Shown piece by piece: positions 32,521 to 40,051 of a stretch of 64,000 nucleotides of DNA. Each line of letters starts with the position of its first letter. Within the stretch, counting starts at the first letter, position 1. The position numbers were made by a program, and so were the translations under genes. The stretch is taken from assembly GCA_025358025.1 (NCBI GenBank), contig JANYKW010000099.1, positions 186,001-250,000 of the forward strand. Reading direction: 5' to 3'. Origin of the DNA: Bacteroidia bacterium. Lineage in GTDB: Bacteria > Bacteroidota > Bacteroidia > Bacteroidales > Prolixibacteraceae. A model generated the notes under the pieces. The model was not told the DNA's origin, did no database searches, and saw only the letters and a program-made list of their open reading frames with translations.

Positions 32521-34758
32521 TCACTTTTTCAGTGACCATCCGCCTTTGAGTCCAAATATGAACCAGGCCAGGCTGAGTGTTCCCAAGCCGAACAGGGAAT
32601 CGCCGATCATCCTGAGCCACTTGAAGGTGATGATATAGGGCTGCTGCATAAATTCTGCAGAACGGGCAAACCAAAGACCTTCTTTTACGCTGGCCAGTGT
32701 TTGGGCAAGTCCGACAGGCAATACACTTATAAGTACCATCGCAACCAGTCCTATGTTGATGCTCCAGAAGGCAAATTTCAACCATTTTTCATTCCAGACT
32801 GCATCTTTGTTCATGTCTCTGAGGACGAAAAGCATCAATCCTATTCCCAGCATTCCGTATACGCCAAACAGGGCGGTATGACCGTGAACGGCAGTTGTAT
32901 TGAGACCCTGCATATAATACAGCGCAATTGGAGGATTGATTAGGAATCCAAAAATTCCAGCACCTACCAGGTTCCAGAATGCTACAGCAATAAAACTGTT
33001 GATAGCCCAGCGGTATTTTTTGATCCACTCATTGCTGTTGTTTAGCTTGAGGTTGTCATAGGCCTCAAAGCCCATAAGTACCAGTGGCACAACTTCTAAC
33101 GCGCTGAATGTAGCACCAAGAGCCATGACAGCCGTTGGGGTGCCTGTAAAATACAGGTGATGGAAGGTGCCCAGTATACCTCCGGCCAAAAAGACAACCG
33201 TTGAGAAAAGTACAGCGGTAGTTGCCGTGGCTGCTTTGATTATTTGCATGCGGACAAAGAGAAATGCCGTTACGACAGCAGCAAATACTTCGAAAAATCC
33301 TTCTACCCAAAGGTGCACGACCCACCAGCGCCAGTATTCGGCAACTGCCAGGTTCGTATGTTGACCCCACATAAGTCCGGCGCCGTAGAATGAAGCAATG
33401 GCAATAGAGGATATTAAGAACAAAATCAGCAGGTTACGGCTCTCTGACTTCACCTTCAAGGCCGGCCAAATTGCTCTTCCCATCAAAAACAACCAGATGA
33501 AAAGTCCCAGGAACAAGAAGATTTGCCAGAAACGTCCGAGGTCTACATATTCATATCCCTGGTGACCAAACCAAAAATTCGTAATGTAACCAAGTTTTTG
33601 CATGACACCCATCCATTGACCAGCCAATGAACCCACGACGATAACCAAAAGAGCCAAAAACAGGAAGTTAACGCCCAGTTTTTGATATTTTGGTTCGACA
33701 CCAGAGATAGCAGGTGCATAATAGAGCCCGGTTGCCAACCAGGATGTGGCAATCCAGAAAATGGCTATTTGTATGTGCCAGGTTCGTGAAACGGAATAGG
33801 GCAGCCACTCTGCCAGTGGTATTCCAAAAAATGCCTGTCCTTCAACGGTATAATGTGCTGTGATGATACCTGCAATAACCTGAACCAAAAACAGGGCAGA
33901 TACGATCCAGAAATATTTAACGGTAGCTTTTTGGGAAGGAGTTTGCATGTAGTCGGCCAATGGAAATTTTACCGGAATTTCAGTAGCAGCCTCTTCTCTT
34001 CTGCGGGCATAATAAAATACCATCATTCCAATTCCGGCAAGCAGCATGATCACGCTGAATCCTGTCCACAACAGCAATGCTCCTGTCGGATGGTTACCAA
34101 CCAATTCTTCAGACGGCCAGTTGTTTGTATAAGAAATTTCCTGACCAACACGTTGCGTTACGCAGGCCCAGGCAGTCCAGAAAAAGAAAGCATTCAAGGG
34201 TTTCAATCTTTCCTGAGATTTGATGGCGTTGTCGGGAATGGCATAAGCCTCCCTCAGTTTGCGCATGGCAGGATCGTTTGTAAACAATCCGGAATAGAAA
34301 TTGCCGTTCGAAGCGATCGCCTCAGCCCTGTCCTTTGAAATGGTAATCGTTTTTGTTTGAGGGTCGAACGTATTTTTGCGAAGTTCCCGTTGCAGGGTAA
34401 TTTTTAATGCAGCCTTGTTTTCATCGGTTTGCTGGTCGTAAGATTTTCCGGTTGTTTTTAGTGCAAGATTGTTCAGGATAAAAATGGCCTCTTTGTGAAG
34501 CCAGTCAGCACTCCAGTCTGGCGCCTGGTATGCACCGTGTCCCCAAATCGTACCCATTTCATGTCCGCCCATGGATTGCCAAACATTCTGGCCATCCTGG
34601 ATATCCTGTCCGGTAAAAATTACGGTGCCGTCAGTTGTTACTACTTTTTCGGGAATTGGCGGAGCTTCCCGATATATTTCAATGCCGTAATAGATCAAAA
34701 CCGCAAAGGAGATGGTCATGACGGCGATAAAACCCAGCCATAGTTTTTTAGGTGTCAT
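32521..34758 (-). CDS. norZ: Quinol-dependent nitric oxide reductase (qNOR)
   Basis: 745 residues, a single-chain member of the haem-copper oxidase superfamily that reduces NO to N2O with quinol. The N-terminal part (residues 1-225) is the cytochrome-c-like extension without a CxxCH haem motif, which identifies qNOR rather than cNOR. GQNVWQSMGGHEMGTIWGHG is typical of it. About 13-14 membrane helices follow. Haem and FeB ligands lie in SRTWHIQIAIFWIATSWLA, RWWVVHLWVEGFFEVF (the His-Glu pair diagnostic of NOR), HHLYFTG and HGHTALFGVYG. It is 29 bases downstream of a hemerythrin gene in one unit. In an anaerobe it probably detoxifies NO. Confidence 0.95.
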   Translation of the reverse strand: MTPKKLWLGFIAVMTISFAVLIYYGIEIYREAPPIPEKVVTTDGTVIFTGQDIQDGQNVWQSMGGHEMGTIWGHGAYQAPDWSADWLHKEAIFILNNLALKTTGKSYDQQTDENKAALKITLQRELRKNTFDPQTKTITISKDRAEAIASNGNFYSGLFTNDPAMRKLREAYAIPDNAIKSQERLKPLNAFFFWTAWACVTQRVGQEISYTNNWPSEELVGNHPTGALLLWTGFSVIMLLAGIGMMVFYYARRREEAATEIPVKFPLADYMQTPSQKATVKYFWIVSALFLVQVIAGIITAHYTVEGQAFFGIPLAEWLPYSVSRTWHIQIAIFWIATSWLATGLYYAPAISGVEPKYQKLGVNFLFLALLVIVVGSLAGQWMGVMQKLGYITNFWFGHQGYEYVDLGRFWQIFLFLGLFIWLFLMGRAIWPALKVKSESRNLLILFLISSIAIASFYGAGLMWGQHTNLAVAEYWRWWVVHLWVEGFFEVFAAVVTAFLFVRMQIIKAATATTAVLFSTVVFLAGGILGTFHHLYFTGTPTAVMALGATFSALEVVPLVLMGFEAYDNLKLNNSNEWIKKYRWAINSFIAVAFWNLVGAGIFGFLINPPIALYYMQGLNTTAVHGHTALFGVYGMLGIGLMLFVLRDMNKDAVWNEKWLKFAFWSINIGLVAMVLISVLPVGLAQTLASVKEGLWFARSAEFMQQPYIITFKWLRMIGDSLFGLGTLSLAWFIFGLKGGWSLKK

Positions 34759-34787
34759 AATTTTTTTTTAAAATTAAAAGTTGAGGG

Positions 34788-35351
34788 TTAATTTGATTTA
34801 ATATATTGATTGGAAAGAATTTCAATGCGATGGATATATTCCTCTCCGGATATGCCATTTTCAGTACCGGCATCAATCGCCGTAAACTGATCCAGCAGGG
34901 ATTGTTGATTTTCTGAAGTGAAAACATTGTCGGCCATCCGGAAAAGTACATTGTTCTCTTTGGCAATGTGGTTTTTCAATAATTCTGCATATCCAAGCAT
35001 GTTGGAATAGATTAATCCCAGGGAATCCAATTGTCCGTTTTTGTATAGTTGGATGTTTTCAGCCATGTTCTTCACATATCCTCTGCCTTGTTCATGATCC
35101 ATCAGCATCACCGCCACCGGACCCTGTTGTGTTGAGAATCCCTTCTCGGCCATCAACGGAAAGAGTAGGTTTTCCTCTTTTGCATGATGAAGACCATCGG
35201 CAAATTGCCTGATGAGATTTACTACCTCCTCCAGGTGGGAAATATTTGGTTCAGGGAGTTTAACCATCATTTCCATCACATCAATCAGTTTTATAATGTG
35301 CTGGTGATCGTTCTCCAGGTTTTGGGTAGCTTTTTCCATTTTTACCTTCAT
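34788..35351 (-). CDS. Hemerythrin HHE-domain protein (probable NO or iron handling)
   Basis: 187 residues, an all-helical di-iron hemerythrin domain. The expected ligand set is visible: His16 and His18 (NDHQH), His55/His56 with Glu59/Glu60 (LHHAKEEN), His86-Glu87 (MDHEQGRGY) and His128 with Glu132 (NHIAKEN). An alternative ATG at codon 5 exists. It lacks the N-terminal ScdA/YtfE domain of Ric proteins. Its promoter carries a dyad overlapping the -33 box, and it is followed by the NO reductase. I infer NO sensing, scavenging or iron-centre repair from this context. Confidence 0.88.
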   Translation of the reverse strand: MKVKMEKATQNLENDHQHIIKLIDVMEMMVKLPEPNISHLEEVVNLIRQFADGLHHAKEENLLFPLMAEKGFSTQQGPVAVMLMDHEQGRGYVKNMAENIQLYKNGQLDSLGLIYSNMLGYAELLKNHIAKENNVLFRMADNVFTSENQQSLLDQFTAIDAGTENGISGEEYIHRIEILSNQYIKSN

Positions 35352-35383
35352 ATTATTCGTCCTTTATTAAAGATTTTTCACGA

Positions 35384-35417
35384 CAAATATATTAATTATT
35401 CAAATAAAAGACAAAAA
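35384..35417 (-). promoter_or_regulatory. Promoter of the hemerythrin-norZ unit
   Basis: On the minus strand, a TTTTTG element (35412-35417), 20 bases, then TATATTTG (35384-35391) exactly fits the Bacteroidota consensus. The predicted start near 35378 leaves about 27 bases before the ATG at 35351. Confidence 0.65.
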
Positions 35418-35426
35418 GGTCTTATA
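35405..35426. promoter_or_regulatory. Candidate operator for the Rrf2 regulator
   Basis: TAAAAGAC (35405-35412), six bases, GTCTTATA (35419-35426): 8-bp arms with one mismatch. It overlaps the -33 element of the hemerythrin-norZ promoter and lies upstream of the divergent Rrf2 gene's -7 box. A core of AAGA-N-TCTT type is reminiscent of NsrR sites, but binding is inferred from position only. Confidence 0.45.
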
Positions 35427-35452
35427 ATATTTAAAATTAATCTGATTTTTTT

Positions 35453-35460
35453 TACTTTTG
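35453..35460 (+). promoter_or_regulatory. -7 element of the Rrf2 regulator gene
   Basis: TACTTTTG is an exact TAnnTTTG match about 30 bases before the GTG start. No TTTG is present 19-21 bases upstream, only TTTA, so the promoter may be weak or need help. Confidence 0.45.
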
Positions 35461-35489
35461 AGCTACGATTAACGAATTGCCTGCCTGCC

Positions 35490-35942
35490 GTGTTTAAAAA
35501 AGAGACAGAATATGCTTTGAGAGGGATGGTATACATCCAGATGCAAAACCTGAAAGATCGCAGACCAGGCGTAGCTGAGATAGCTCATGAGATTGAAGCG
35601 CCCTATTTCTTCACTGCAAAGATCTTTCAACGTCTTGCAAAACAAGGATTTGTCAGGTCTTTAAAAGGAAAGGGAGGAGGATTTTTTCTGGATCCCGAGA
35701 AAAATGATTTGTCGTTGAAAGAGCTCATCATTGCCATAGAAGGGGCAGAGTTATTTGTCGGATGCGGATTTGGCCTGAAAAACTGTGACGAAGAGAATCC
35801 TTGTCCGCTACACCATCAATACGGAGCTATCCGGGATGAGATCAACAAATTGGTCACAGGAGAGACGATCCAGTCGTTGGCACAGAATACACTGGGTAAG
35901 ACGCTGGCTTTTTCGAGGGAGAGTCTCCCAACGAATGGGTGA
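35490..35942 (+). CDS. Rrf2-family Fe-S transcription regulator (NsrR-like)
   Basis: 150 residues from a GTG at 35490. The frame is open upstream, but that part covers the promoter and is not protein-like. The N-terminal winged helix has the family start FKKETEYALRGMVYIQMQ, and the wing is GKGGGFFLDPE. Three cysteines, Cys92, Cys99 and Cys105 (GCGFGLKNCDEENPCPLHH), are placed as the Fe-S ligands of Rrf2 regulators. Such clusters are nitrosylated in NsrR. It is divergent from the hemerythrin-NO reductase unit, whose promoter carries a dyad, so an NO-responsive repressor is the simplest reading. IscR- or RsrR-like roles are less likely. Confidence 0.85.
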   Translation: MFKKETEYALRGMVYIQMQNLKDRRPGVAEIAHEIEAPYFFTAKIFQRLAKQGFVRSLKGKGGGFFLDPEKNDLSLKELIIAIEGAELFVGCGFGLKNCDEENPCPLHHQYGAIRDEINKLVTGETIQSLAQNTLGKTLAFSRESLPTNG

Positions 35943-36017
35943 TAAAGGCACAAAAATTAATCTGGTTCCTCAAAATCTATAAGTTTGACAGTACTAAATA
36001 TCCAAAAGTAAACGAAG

Positions 36018-36353
36018 ATGGAAAAGGTGATTGCATGTTGTGGTTTAGACTGTGCTACTTGCGATGCAAGAATCGCTACGTTAGCTGATGACAATGAATT
36101 GCGTGCCCGCACGGCAGAGAAATGGAGCGTTCAATTCAATGCCGGCATTACAACGGAAATGATCAATTGCACAGGGTGCAGGGAAGCAGGTGTTAAATTT
36201 GGCCATTGTTCGCAGTGTGAGATCAGAAAATGTGCCGGCTCAAAGGGCTATCAAACCTGTGGCGAATGCGAAAAATTAGAGAATTGCCCAACAGTGCAGA
36301 TGGTACACCAATATGTACCTGATGCATTGGGAAATCTCCAATCATTGAATTAA
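36018..36353 (+). CDS. DUF3795 family Cys-rich protein
   Basis: 111 residues with 14 cysteines, starting MEKVIACCGLDCATCDARIA, the usual beginning of DUF3795 proteins. Later groups are INCTGCREAG, FGHCSQCEIRKCAG and YQTCGECEKLENC, which look like zinc or Fe-S knuckles. The function of the family is unknown to me. It lies 75 bases after the Rrf2 gene on the same strand and may share its transcript. An association with NO or metal stress is only contextual. Confidence 0.85.
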   Translation: MEKVIACCGLDCATCDARIATLADDNELRARTAEKWSVQFNAGITTEMINCTGCREAGVKFGHCSQCEIRKCAGSKGYQTCGECEKLENCPTVQMVHQYVPDALGNLQSLN

Positions 36354-36382
36354 TAGTCTCACTTACCCCTCAATCATATAAT

Positions 36383-36422
36383 CGGAGCAACAATACATAT
36401 TTGTGGTTGTATTGCTGCTCCG
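36383..36422. terminator. Hairpin between convergent DUF3795 and osmC genes
   Basis: CGGAGCAACAATAC and GTATTGCTGCTCCG form a 14-bp stem with one mismatch around a 12-base loop. T/A runs nearby are short. It sits 10 bases before the osmC stop, so it probably ends transcription from both sides. Confidence 0.65.
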
Positions 36423-36431
36423 AAAATGTTG

Positions 36432-36875
36432 TTAATTCAGTTGGATAAGATTGAACGTTAGCGGAGTGGGGAATGCCAGATTGTCGTTAATCGGACAGCG
36501 GTTTTTAATGGCCTTGATCCACTTCGCAGTCAATTCAGGCGACGCATCTGTGACTGGCGTGAAATTCACGTCTATCTGCTTGAAACCGGCACGCTCCTCT
36601 TCCGATTGGCCAAACAGACGTGCAGGATTTAGATTTCCGCTCACTGAAATGGTAAGTTTCTCCACTTTAATACCTAGTTCCTTAGCGGTTAGATGGGCAA
36701 CCACATTCATGCAACCTGCGTAGCTGGCTAAAAGAAATTCTACAGGATTGGCACCGAGATCATCACCGCCCAATGCAGGTGGTTCGTCGATTACCAGGGT
36801 GAACTGTCTTGCATTTGCATCAAAACGGGCTGCCGTCTGTGCTTCTCCTTCAACTTTAAAAAATAGATCTGCCAT
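36432..36875 (-). CDS. OsmC-family thiol peroxidase-like protein
   Basis: 147 residues of the OsmC/Ohr superfamily. These dimeric cytosolic enzymes reduce organic hydroperoxides, or handle sulfur in some branches, with two cysteines: here Cys55 (SYAGCMNVVAHL) and Cys127 (NRCPINDNL). GGDDLGANPVEFLLAS is the typical active-site helix. The subgroup with NRCPI-type second Cys is the YhfA-like OsmC type rather than Ohr. Upstream lie a promoter, a 19-residue leader peptide rich in Cys and an intrinsic terminator, so expression is probably set by attenuation sensing Cys supply. That would favour a sulfur-related role. Confidence 0.9.
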   Translation of the reverse strand: MADLFFKVEGEAQTAARFDANARQFTLVIDEPPALGGDDLGANPVEFLLASYAGCMNVVAHLTAKELGIKVEKLTISVSGNLNPARLFGQSEEERAGFKQIDVNFTPVTDASPELTAKWIKAIKNRCPINDNLAFPTPLTFNLIQLN

Positions 36876-36894
36876 GGTTTTTTGTTTTTGGTGT

Positions 36895-36927
36895 AAAAAA
36901 AAAGCCCCTCACATTTTGTGAAGAGCC
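36895..36927 (-). terminator. Intrinsic terminator in the osmC leader (attenuator)
   Basis: On the minus strand, GGCTCTTCAC (36927-36918), loop AAAAT, GTGAGGGGCT (36912-36903), then nine T. It is a 10-bp stem with three G-U pairs, 20 bases before the osmC ATG, between the leader peptide and the gene. Its 5' arm can alternatively pair with TGTGGAGGGC inside the leader peptide (36986-36977), also 10 bp, which would prevent termination. Confidence 0.85.
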
Positions 36928-36958
36928 ATATTGCTGTTTAAATTCTTTCAGGTAAAAT

Positions 36959-37018
36959 CTAACAATGCATTACGACGCCCTCCACATGTTGGACCAACAT
37001 ACAGCTGCACATACACAT
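36959..37018 (-). CDS. Cys-rich leader peptide upstream of osmC (19 residues)
   Basis: The minus-strand frame from the ATG at 37016-37018 reads MCMCSCMLVQHVEGVVMHC and stops at TAG (36961-36959). Cys is at positions 2, 4, 6 and 19. Codons 12-14 (GTG GAG GGC, Val-Glu-Gly) are the strand that can pair with the 5' arm of the downstream terminator. A ribosome stalled at the early Cys codons would leave them free (antitermination). One reading through would mask them (termination). It is preceded by an exact -7 element about 75 bases upstream. I do not recognise it as a named family. Confidence 0.7.
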   Translation of the reverse strand: MCMCSCMLVQHVEGVVMHC

Positions 37019-37090
37019 GCAAAGGGAGCTATTTGAATTTGTCAGAATCATATTTATCAGGAGGATAATTTTATTATTTATTATCCATTA

Positions 37091-37098
37091 CAAACCTA
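37091..37098 (-). promoter_or_regulatory. -7 element of the osmC leader transcript
   Basis: TAGGTTTG on the minus strand matches TAnnTTTG exactly. TTTA, not TTTG, lies 19 bases upstream as a weak -33. A start near 37085 gives a leader of about 65 bases before the small peptide. The rest of the spacer up to the HMA gene (37225) is AT-rich with no further feature apparent. Confidence 0.5.
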
Positions 37099-37225
37099 GA
37101 AAATATTTTTTATTTTTAAATGGTCTAATTACAATTATACCTATTGTTAACATAAAATTAACAAATCAGTAAGATAAAAGTAATCAGCCGGTTTTCGAGA
37201 AAATATCTAACTAACCGGTTAAACA

Positions 37226-37573
37226 TTAGCGATATTTACAACACCCGGGTAAACTGCTGTAGATTTTGGCGTCTGCCTTATATTTTTCGGTGTCATGACC
37301 GACGGCGGCAATTTTTTTCTGAATATCGTCGCTCTTTACTACTGCAGGGTTATAAACGAGGGTAAGCATTTTGGTGCTTTTATCCCAGTCGGCTTTGGAA
37401 ACCCCTTCAACTTTAGCGGCTGTTTCGATTCGATCTTTGCACATTCCGCAGTTTCCGGAGACTTTGATTGATTCTGTTTTGGCTACAGTGGTTTTTGAAC
37501 TGGTCTGGCCATAGGAATTTGTAAACACAACCAGAGCCATGATGGCGACAACAACGAATTTTAATGTTTTCAT
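37226..37573 (-). CDS. Secreted heavy-metal-associated (HMA) domain protein
   Basis: 115 residues. A signal peptide covers residues 1-22 (MKTLKFVVVAIMALVVFTNS). One HMA fold follows, with the metal motif SGNCGMCKDRIE (Cys42, Cys45), as in CopZ/MerP. The tail ends LPGCCKYR, giving an extra Cys pair that could be a second metal site. It probably binds Cu(I) or a similar metal in the periplasm. It follows the HYC_CC_PP gene by 84 bases on the same strand. No P-type ATPase or CusA efflux gene is in the window, so its partner is unknown. Confidence 0.88.
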   Translation of the reverse strand: MKTLKFVVVAIMALVVFTNSYGQTSSKTTVAKTESIKVSGNCGMCKDRIETAAKVEGVSKADWDKSTKMLTLVYNPAVVKSDDIQKKIAAVGHDTEKYKADAKIYSSLPGCCKYR

Positions 37574-37657
37574 TTTTTGATTTTTTAAATATTATTGAAC
37601 AAAGTAATTTAATAGAGCGTCACAAGATGTAACTGCCTGGCTAAACTATCAGCAAAA

Positions 37658-38074
37658 TCAAATGGTGAAAACACAAATAAAGCTCTGATCAACAGAGTTG
37701 TAGAAATTGAGAACTGGCGGACCTACCATGGAGTGATAGGTCATTGATATGAGGTCTGCGGGAATGCAGATTTTTATGAAAGAGACAGAAATAGATGCCA
37801 CTTCGGATGGAAGATCCTTTACCTCCTTTGACGATGGGAAGTAGTTGCTGTCTGACATGCAGGATGCAATCCTGTTTTTGCAGCAATTTGTATCAATCTC
37901 TCCATTTGGGGATGATGGAGATGTGTGATCTTCCATGCCGCAGGTGGCTTTTTCACCCGTAACAGAATACTTTACTGCGGCCAGTTCTCCACAACAGATA
38001 TGTGAAGCTACCGTCAGATGTAATCCGGAAAGAAGAATCAGCAAGGCAGATAATATGGAGAAAAGTTTCTTCAT
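37658..38074 (-). CDS. HYC_CC_PP family exported protein
   Basis: 138 residues with a signal peptide (MKKLFSILSALLILLSGLHL). The residues that name the Bacteroidota HYC_CC_PP family appear in order: His25-Ile-Cys27 (SHICCGEL), a double Cys (Cys64-Cys65, TNCCKNRI) and Pro-Pro (GPPVLN). Cys45 in CGMEDH and Cys72 add further metal-like ligands. The family is often found beside heavy-metal genes. Here it precedes a secreted HMA protein by 84 bases, so the two probably bind or relay the same metal. The function is unproven. Confidence 0.75.
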   Translation of the reverse strand: MKKLFSILSALLILLSGLHLTVASHICCGELAAVKYSVTGEKATCGMEDHTSPSSPNGEIDTNCCKNRIASCMSDSNYFPSSKEVKDLPSEVASISVSFIKICIPADLISMTYHSMVGPPVLNFYNSVDQSFICVFTI

Positions 38075-38154
38075 CAGCTATTTAAACGTAATCCGCGGTC
38101 TATTTGTTGCAAATAAACAAATAAATTTTGAAAAGTGACTTTAGCCACTTCCCT

Positions 38155-39303
38155 TTACTCAAACATCCCTTTTACCCGTTCGAAGAAATTCCTCTCCTTT
38201 GACTCTTCGGGAACTTGAAAATTAGGAAGTTGCTGTAGTTTTTCCAGTTGTTTTTTTTCATCTGCGGTGAGCTTTTGTGGTATCCATGCATGGATTTTAA
38301 CCAGCAGGTCCCCCTTGCCATAGCCATTGACATCCGGGATTCCTTTTCCGCGGAGGCGCAGAATTTTCTCAGGTTGGGTACCGGACTCAATCTTAACTTT
38401 TACTTTCCCGTCGATGGTCGGAATCTCAGCTGTCAAACCCAGTGCCAAATCAGGAAATGAGAGGAACAAGTTGTAAATCAGGTCATTTTCATCGCGAATC
38501 AATTCAGGATGGTCTTCTTCAGCGATTAAAACCAGCAGATCGCCGGGTATGCCACCACGCCGGGCAGCATTTCCTTTGCCTCCTACCGAAAGTTGCATGC
38601 CTTCGCCTACGCCGGCAGGAATCTTGATGGTAACAACTTCTTCACCCTGCACCAGTCCTTCACCATAGCATTTTTCACATTTCTGCGTAATAATCTTTCC
38701 TTCACCATTACAGGTAGGGCAGGTCGATGATTGCTGAATCTGTCCGAAGATGGAGTTGCTGATGCGTGTTACCTGTCCAGTTCCTTTGCAGGTCGAACAG
38801 TTTGTGTGGCCACTGCTGCCTTTGGCTCCGCTGCCATGGCACGAATCGCAGGAGACATATTTCTTTACTTTCAATTTTTTCTCGCAACCGTTGGCGATCT
38901 CACTGAGGTTGAGGGAAACTTTTATCCGGAGATTAGATCCCCGATTGACACGCTGTCCGCGGGAACCTCCTCCGAAGCCACCAAATCCGCTAAAACCACC
39001 ACCACCACCAAAAATATCTCCAAAAGCTGAGAAAATATCATCCATCGACATGTTATGTCCGCTAAAACCTCCCTGGTTACCCATTCCGGCATGGCCATAC
39101 TGATCATATCTTTGTTTCTTCTCAGGATTGCTGAGTATCTCGTATGCCTCTGCAGCTTCCTTGAATTTTTCTTCAGAAGCCTTGTCTCCCGGGTTTTTAT
39201 CTGGATGGTACTGAATTGCCTTTTGACGATAGGCTTTCTTAATCTCCTCAGAAGTGGCATTTTTGGAGACCCCAAGGACTTCGTAATAATCTCTTTTTGA
39301 CAT
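38155..39303 (-). CDS. dnaJ: Chaperone protein DnaJ
   Basis: 382 residues. J domain at 1-70 with HPDKNPGD (HPD at residues 33-35). A Gly/Phe-rich linker follows, with [15 protein letters not shown]. The zinc domain has four CxxCxGxG repeats ([32 protein letters not shown]), then the substrate-binding C-terminal domains. It stimulates DnaK's ATPase and delivers unfolded clients. It is 32 bases downstream of grpE in one unit; dnaK is not here. No CIRCE-type inverted repeat is seen upstream of grpE. Confidence 0.98.
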
Positions 39304-39335
39304 TTTTGATTTTTTAGCGACACGAAGTCGAATAC

Positions 39336-39944
39336 TTATTCGCCTATAACAACTTTTGAATAACGGATTACTTTATCATGCAACATATAACCCTTTTGAA
39401 CCACCTCTACGATCTTTCCTTTTAATTCTTCGGATGGAGCGGGAATTTTTGTTATGGCTTCATGATGATCTGTATCCAGATCCAAGCCTTTGGCTTCAAT
39501 TTCTACAACGCCATTTTGTTTGGTAAATTCTTTGAATTTATTGTATATCAGGATGATTCCTTCTTTCGTTGTTTCGAGGTTGTCTGATGTTTCAATGGAC
39601 TTCAATGCCCGCTCCAGATCATCAATGACAGGCAAAAAGTTGACGATAACTGATTCTGATGCATTTTTCAGCAGGTCCATCTTCTCTTTCAGCGTGCGTT
39701 TGCGATAGTTGTCAAATTCTGCCGAGAGGCGAAGATATTTGTCGTTGGATGCTGCCAGACCGGCTGTAAGCTCAACTACTTTTTCTTCCAGTTCAGTCTC
39801 CCTGCCTGCAATTTCCAAAGCCTGAATTTCGATCTCGTGTTCTGCAGAAGTCCCCTTTTTTTTTGGAGTGCCTGCATTTAAATCATTTGAATTCAATGGT
39901 TCTTTGCTATATTTTTTATGCTCTTTTTTTTTCTGCGTCATCAT
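39336..39944 (-). CDS. grpE: Nucleotide exchange factor GrpE
   Basis: 202 residues. The first 50 are charged and probably disordered ([29 protein letters not shown]). A long coiled-coil helix follows, containing [27 protein letters not shown]. The C-terminal beta-wing domain has [21 protein letters not shown] and [20 protein letters not shown], the GrpE signature. It releases ADP from DnaK. It is the first gene of the grpE-dnaJ pair, with a spacer of about 107 bases to murA. Confidence 0.97.
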
Positions 39945-40051
39945 CTTAATGCAATTTTCAATTCTATTATAAACACTTCAAATAGCTTGCCAATTGCCCT
40001 GATTCGGACATTTTGACACATTCAAAAGCTCTCAACTGACAGCTCAACTTC

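Follow-up and report, generated by a model that had tools for sequence, protein, structure and literature searches.

The stretch of DNA analysed here, 64,000 nucleotides long and referred to below as the window, carries on its minus strand an osmC gene whose ATG start codon lies at 36875. Its product belongs to the OsmC superfamily, passing PF02566 with 61.0 bits against a cut-off of 27.5, and scores 73.6 bits against NF041052, the model for OsmC-related (seleno)proteins, which is under the curated cut-off of 95. Proteins of the OsmC family are best known for peroxide defence. Upstream of the gene lie a short reading frame with clustered Cys codons, an intrinsic terminator and RNA strands that can pair in alternative ways. 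The features are as follows:

36432..36875, minus strand: osmC, 147 aa, the putative regulated gene (PF02566, E 1.6e-16)
36895..36927, minus strand: intrinsic terminator, hairpin with T run
36904..36913, minus strand: region 4, 3' arm of the terminator (3:4 helix 100% paired, n = 18)
36917..36926, minus strand: region 3, 5' arm of the terminator and partner in the antiterminator, GCTCTTCACA (helix pairing)
36977..36989, minus strand: region 2, antiterminator strand ACATGTGGAGGGC, within the codons for HVEG (2:3 helix 98.8% paired, n = 18)
36959..37051, minus strand: leader ORF, 30 codons plus stop, MILTNSNSSLCMCMCSCMLVQHVEGVVMHC (start ATG unchanged in 18 aligned leaders)
37001..37021, minus strand: Cys codon cluster CMCMCSC, candidate stall codons (TGT/TGC variation, Cys mostly kept in relatives)
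37015..37026, minus strand: region 1, protector strand CCCTTTGCATGT (12-bp 1:2 stem in the lowest-energy fold)
37091..37098, minus strand: promoter-like TAGGTTTG (TAnnTTTG upstream in 12 of 18 leaders)

A preliminary description of this site had read the Cys frame as 19 codons, from the ATG at 37018 to the stop codon at 36961-36959 and encoding MCMCSCMLVQHVEGVVMHC. This frame is present, but the start codon that relatives keep is the in-phase upstream ATG at 37051. Because this ATG, and not that at 37018, is invariant in an alignment of 18 leaders that includes the window's own, we take the leader to be 30 codons long, with the cluster CMCMCSC. By raw count, the 64-kb window contains eight short ORFs with at least three Cys in eight residues; a T6 run lies within 110 nt of two of them, one of which is the osmC leader. 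The promoter-like site ahead of the leader has the form TAnnTTTG, which we take to be the Bacteroidota -7 type promoter consensus, and a scan with the sigma-70 consensus gave no signal (11 promoter-like sites against 11.3 expected). Just behind the promoter-like site, an inverted repeat of constant length, CCTAY-N7-RTAGG, is found upstream of osmC in eight of 18 cases, its place in the window being taken by GGATAAT...ATTATCC at 37063-37086; this upstream inverted repeat may be an operator or a 5' hairpin.

The strong intrinsic terminator previously noted between the Cys frame and osmC is indeed present, as hairpin GGCTCTTCACAAAATGTGAGGGGCT at 36927-36903 with a T run that reaches 36895. Its 5' arm can also take part in an antiterminator, in which TGTGGAGGGC (36986-36977) pairs with GCTCTTCACA (36926-36917) over 10 pairs. 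The preliminary description had proposed a helix of this length, correctly, but had placed the partner strand one base off, so that GGCTCTTCAC as written gives nine pairs; it was right that the sensing strand lies inside the coding part, since TGTGGAGGGC comprises the V-E-G codons plus one base. Its picture of two strands was nonetheless incomplete, having overlooked the protector strand of region 1: CCCTTTGCATGT (37026-37015) pairs over 12 bp with ACATGTGGAGGG (36989-36978) to give a protector hairpin, and the lowest-energy fold of the whole window leader consists of this 1:2 stem and the terminator. Region 1 of the window is shifted relative to the relatives, where CACTTTCC acts as the protector strand. 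An Rfam search of window positions 34000-40000 gave no match up to E 1, and a T-box, riboswitch or other Rfam element at the leader was ruled out for want of a match there; among 14 related loci at Rfam gathering scores, the one match was a SAM riboswitch in L266.

Beside osmC, at 32521-35942, the window encodes a NorB-type nitric oxide reductase (by sequence reading), a hemerythrin-like protein weakly like YtfE/DnrN and an Rrf2-type regulator, possibly a nitric-oxide-response cluster. The idea that osmC is a nitric-oxide responder, suggested by these neighbours, was rejected because the leader accompanies osmC where the neighbours differ.

We searched 140 Prolixibacteraceae genomes for OsmC and examined the loci of 30 of the best matches, finding a Cys leader with terminator in 19 of the 30. 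Within this set the leader-bearing loci were exactly those with an OsmC identity of at least 68%, and the other 11 (identity at most 64%, one of them frameshifted) had no Cys leader. The terminator ends 17-23 nt before the osmC start in all 19, and leader and terminator remain with osmC in these relatives while the upstream genes vary, some of them lying on the opposite strand. In a second set of relatives, which overlaps the first and includes the genera Sunxiuqinia, Draconibacterium, Maribellus and Mariniphaga, 59 of 80 osmC loci were examined and 20 of the 59 had the same type of leader; one more, L052, had an unrelated Cys leader with terminator, and L049 (67% OsmC identity) and L107 (frameshifted) had no leader. 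Together these give 21 distinct osmC leaders, all of one family, each with three to six Cys and a terminator, the sequences compared being kin and the counts those of non-independent events. A strand of the GTGGAGGG type is present in all 21 and exact in 15, the six others having GTGGAAGG (three leaders), GTGGAGGT, GTGGAGGA or GTGGGGGG. At the positions of the cluster, Cys is mostly kept in the relatives and its codon alternates between TGT and TGC. The comparison in related Bacteroidota that the preliminary description had called for thus bears it out as regards the small frame, the Cys codons and the pairing, all kept in close relatives. The compensatory pairing that it had also looked to was borne out in part: the helices are 98.6-100% paired (n = 18), but double changes are sparse.

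To see which other genes carry such leaders, we searched the 140 family genomes with R1, a model of the osmC leader that responds to Cys-leader sequence as such but is blind to the downstream gene. Nine of ten R1 places (L131-L140) had a Cys leader, that of L138 being judged from 11 residues, and the tenth, L136, had two Cys only. By sequence reading, eight of the nine precede cysteine-synthase-type genes and one a hemA-type gene. Of the next 59 places by E-value we examined 58, all but G039:C55, and a leader ORF with at least three Cys was present in 52. The gene behind it was cysK-like in 33 cases, DUF2061-like in 17 and of the NAD_binding_7 (siroheme) type in one, and the remaining leader stood at a contig end; genes were sorted by sequence pattern, with a Pfam check on one DUF2061, the NAD_binding_7 and two PALP-fold genes. 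The presence of such leaders ahead of cysteine-biosynthesis genes lends support to the Cys reading of the osmC leader. In an order-level R1 search, three of 28 new loci (L141-L168) were examined: L142 is the L052 osmC with the Cys leader noted above, and L143 has neither a branched-chain amino acid (BCAA) leader nor a Cys leader. In L141 of the same order, a gene that reads as ilvD-type stands behind an Ile/Leu/Val-codon leader and terminator, an ordinary BCAA-type attenuator.

The genes around osmC in some relatives point the same way. An osmC-type cassette lies upstream of cysteine-synthase-type genes in L122 and L131, and in L037, L040, L041 and L048 a cysteine-synthase-type gene follows osmC at about 10-12 nt, with a sulfite-reductase-type gene next in L041. 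L110 and L038 have a second Cys attenuator behind osmC, ahead of a PALP-type gene and a Cys/Met-metabolism PLP gene (Pfam on L038). PLP and ThiF-type genes follow osmC in L031, L033-L036 and L044 (Pfam on one of each); in L036 the order is ThiS-type, Cys_Met_Meta_PP-type and ThiF-type, and a ThiS-type start similar to that of L036 is found in the gaps of L031, L033 and L044. No such osmC partner was found in L032, L039, L042, L043, L045, L046, L047, L050 or the window. The target genes of the leaders thus belong to cysteine and sulfur metabolism, in the case of osmC only via operon partners in some relatives. From these neighbours and the switch itself we infer that OsmC serves cysteine synthesis. 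At L110 (722-940), osmC is shortened to 72 codons after an intact leader, followed by the second Cys attenuator and transsulfuration-type genes.

We used the frequency of pairing in aligned leaders, and its response to sliding and shuffling, as a measure of how far the three helices are conserved. Across 18 osmC leaders, 98.8% of cells in the 2:3 helix were paired, compared with 43-59% when slid, and G-C is replaced by A-U in the three leaders that have GAA as the Glu codon. None of 500 shuffles matched the cells with double changes (three) or the covariation score; the single pair with double changes was matched by 220 of 500 shuffles, and a slide of +2 gave an equal covariation score of 0.102. 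The 1:2 helix was 98.6% paired with double changes in two pairs, and the 3:4 terminator helix 100% paired with double changes in one, the number of double-change pairs for these two helices combined being matched by 2 of 500 shuffles. For 26 cysK leaders the 2:3 helix was 98.4% paired (35-70% when slid) with G-C to A-U replacement in four, one double-change pair matched by 262 of 500 shuffles, and a covariation score of 0.088, slides of -1 and -2 scoring 0.140 and 0.089. Covariation within leader classes is thin.

Swapping arms between classes is a stronger test of the pairing than covariation within a class. In 79 distinct Cys leaders, the leader's own 2:3 helix averaged -13.1 kcal/mol compared with -9.7 kcal/mol for swapped arms (mean z -3.2), and 67 of the 79 beat their shuffles at p<=0.05, the 12 that did not including the osmC leader L002. 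The leaders have three terminator types, each of which binds a region 2 of its own type best, with type-by-type 2:3 means of -13.2, -11.6 and -11.6 for own arms and -6.9 to -10.5 for foreign ones. Additionally, the cysK region 2 (of the GGGGAAGG type) is read in all three frames (33, 5 and 3 of 41 leaders), so that it is RNA, and not peptide, that is under selection there.

Another line of evidence is the spacing of the leaders, which we judged against the size of the ribosome footprint. Region 2 follows the last Cys codon at a median distance of 14 nt in osmC leaders (range 14-18, n = 21), 13 nt in cysK leaders (9-18, n = 41) and 14 nt in DUF2061 leaders (11-21, n = 17). Region 2 lies 15 nt (range 12-27), 12 nt and 10 nt before the stop codon in the three classes respectively, and the stop codon 31, 28 and 31 nt before region 3. 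With this spacing, a ribosome at the Cys cluster would leave region 2 more or less exposed, and one that has reached the stop codon would cover or shield it.

Folding models gave results that depend on how the ribosome is treated. One model permits pairing only ahead of the ribosome, on the assumption that the RNA on its two sides stays apart. A stalled ribosome then lets 2:3 form in 21 of 21 osmC leaders; the value of zero for 2:3 with the ribosome at the stop codon arises because the same assumption forces it. Without a ribosome, before region 4 has been made, 2:3 exceeds 0.5 in 13 of the 21 osmC leaders, so that a protector role of 1:2 is weakly supported. When the footprint was masked and the RNA folded at equilibrium, the finished terminator won in almost every state of the relatives, and placing a ribosome at the stop codon did not hide region 2 (2:3 mean 0.78 before region 4). 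The window's copy, with pairing across the ribosome allowed, switches at two of three modelled stall positions: the terminator has a value of 0.06 when the A site is two codons short of the last Cys codon and 0.23 when it is one codon short, and at the last Cys codon it has 0.86, the antiterminator not being favoured.

In the window's own genome, covariance models R2 (built from cysK leaders) and R3 (from DUF2061 leaders), neither of which contains an osmC leader, both give the window site as their best match, with E 1.8e-4 and 9.4e-4. Neither model finds a second Cys leader in that genome, the next matches (E 0.04 and 0.008) covering the terminator end only, and eight close cysK genes of the window's genus have no Cys leader in the 260 nt upstream. 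Five of these eight (L230-L232, L234 and L236), that of the window's genome included, have instead an upstream palindrome, TACC-N8-GGTA, which looks like a DNA operator replacing the attenuator. The same palindrome occurs upstream of osmC without the family leader in 2 of 11 and 5 of 35 cases and in 0 of 19 with it, the bearers being L004, L005, L049 and L056 (L005 and L056 probably from the same genome) and, from Chlorobiaceae, L063, L068 and L071. The 64-kb window has two copies of it.

Searches of the wider phylum (395 genomes) gave 55 new loci (L242-L296), of which 51 were examined. A Cys ORF with at least three Cys in eight residues is present in nine of the 51, corresponding to eight distinct sites (L247 being the same as L288), and the other 42 have no such ORF; those of L248 and L287 are doubtful. 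By sequence reading, candidate Cys leaders precede rhodanese-type genes (L247, L268, L272), MetY-type genes (L266, L280) and a cobA-type gene (L243), and this handful of sites suggests that the leader may have spread beyond the family. L266 (1501-1767) has two sulfur sensors in tandem ahead of its MetY-type gene, first a Cys leader with terminator and then a SAM-I riboswitch (RF00162, 87.9 bits, 1656-1767).

We conclude that the osmC leader is, with high probability, a classical ribosome-mediated transcription attenuator of the trp/his type that reads charged Cys-tRNA. The case is one of sequence comparison, namely the conserved leader, the three alternative helices, their spacing and the company of Cys-pathway genes, and we infer from it the translation of the leader, stalling, dependence on Cys, read-through and the role of 1:2. 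RNA polymerase would transcribe the leader with a ribosome following. If Cys-tRNA is scarce, the ribosome would halt at the Cys cluster with its leading edge about at the start of region 2, so that region 2 could pair with region 3 before region 4 exists; with 2:3 formed, the terminator would be blocked and osmC transcribed. If Cys-tRNA is ample, the ribosome would reach the stop codon, 12-27 nt beyond region 2 in osmC leaders, and with region 2 under or behind it 3:4 would form and transcription end. In an untranslated leader, the 1:2 hairpin probably occupies region 2.

A Cys-rich chain might alternatively stall the ribosome by itself, as a nascent arrest peptide or a redox or metal sensor that responds to a ligand, an oxidant or a metal and not to Cys-tRNA. 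The strong conservation of Met in CMCCCM-like clusters would fit such a chain, as would the tie of the OsmC family to peroxide defence. Since the cysK leaders use region 2 in three frames and the residues flanking the cluster vary between classes, however, little is common to the peptides beyond Cys and Met, and the genes in their company are those of cysteine biosynthesis, so that we consider this explanation improbable. That the hairpin merely terminates an upstream transcript or a small RNA, with the short ORF incidental, would account for a strong intrinsic terminator ahead of osmC, but not for leader and terminator staying with osmC in 19 relatives whose upstream genes differ, nor for conserved pairing outside the terminator; we give it hardly any credence.

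Control might also be Rho-dependent or coupled to translation, as with the poly-Cys leaders of Actinobacteria, and not act on the intrinsic terminator at all. Cys leaders of that type are described in the available text of PMC1262725, and translation attenuation in M. smegmatis is mentioned in that of PMC13236596. Against this, a conserved intrinsic terminator and competing helices lie between leader and osmC, whereas the actinobacterial cases, as far as the available text of PMC1262725 describes them, have their Cys runs close to the stop codon and lack a conserved terminator hairpin, which makes such control of osmC very improbable.

Our preferred reading, an attenuator of the trp/his type, shares with the trp and his systems a leader ORF with regulatory codons, the 1:2, 2:3 and 3:4 helices and regulated genes that belong to the sensed amino acid's pathway; it differs from them in that Cys is sensed, the host belongs to Bacteroidota and the target is osmC. 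In E. coli trpL, region 2 comes after the leader stop codon, whereas in osmC leaders the ORF encloses it completely, with 12-27 nt left to the stop. Canestrari reportedly described, in 2020, leader ORFs of the poly-Cys type that stand ahead of cys operons in Actinobacteria. As in the osmC leader, these leaders have Cys codons in a short ORF before cysteine genes, but their Cys runs lie near the stop and no conserved terminator hairpin was found, whereas the osmC leader has an intrinsic terminator and competing helices (PMC1262725, available text); by the marks of that type, a Cys run near the stop and no intrinsic terminator, the osmC leader does not belong to it. Stalling on a uORF likewise toggles antiterminator and terminator in the BCAA-type ilvB1 attenuator of Mycobacterium tuberculosis, with a different amino acid, phylum and gene (PMC13236596, available text). 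Within the phylum, leader-peptide attenuation, with peptides before amino-acid operons, is known from Flavobacterium psychrophilum, in an account whose available text names neither a cysteine leader nor osmC (PMC9723704). The available text of the open PMC literature, including PMC9723704, PMC7366714, PMC1262725, PMC13236596, PMC4833913 and PMC2965389, has no description of Cys attenuators in Bacteroidota. The preliminary claim that the control is undescribed therefore stands within that literature only, in which neither the osmC target nor Cys specificity with an intrinsic terminator was found. Thus, the kind of attenuator is known, and its specificity, the group in which it occurs and its target are new as far as the literature was searched.

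Very probably the osmC switch does not stand alone in this bacterial group but belongs to a set of such switches ahead of sulfur genes. Preservation of the antiterminator strand in three frames is a clear sign of selection on RNA and not on peptide. We see about an even chance that Bacteroidota have a cysteine regulon of intrinsic-terminator Cys attenuators that have spread to sulfate assimilation, siroheme, transsulfuration and rhodanese genes, and that OsmC, so far filed as a peroxide-stress enzyme, has in this family a dedicated role in making cysteine or in handling sulfur, switched on at a shortage of Cys-tRNA. The attenuator reading accounts for cysteine control in Bacteroidota without calling on a regulator protein, and the link it draws between an OsmC protein and cysteine supply is a testable lead for a family associated with peroxide defence.
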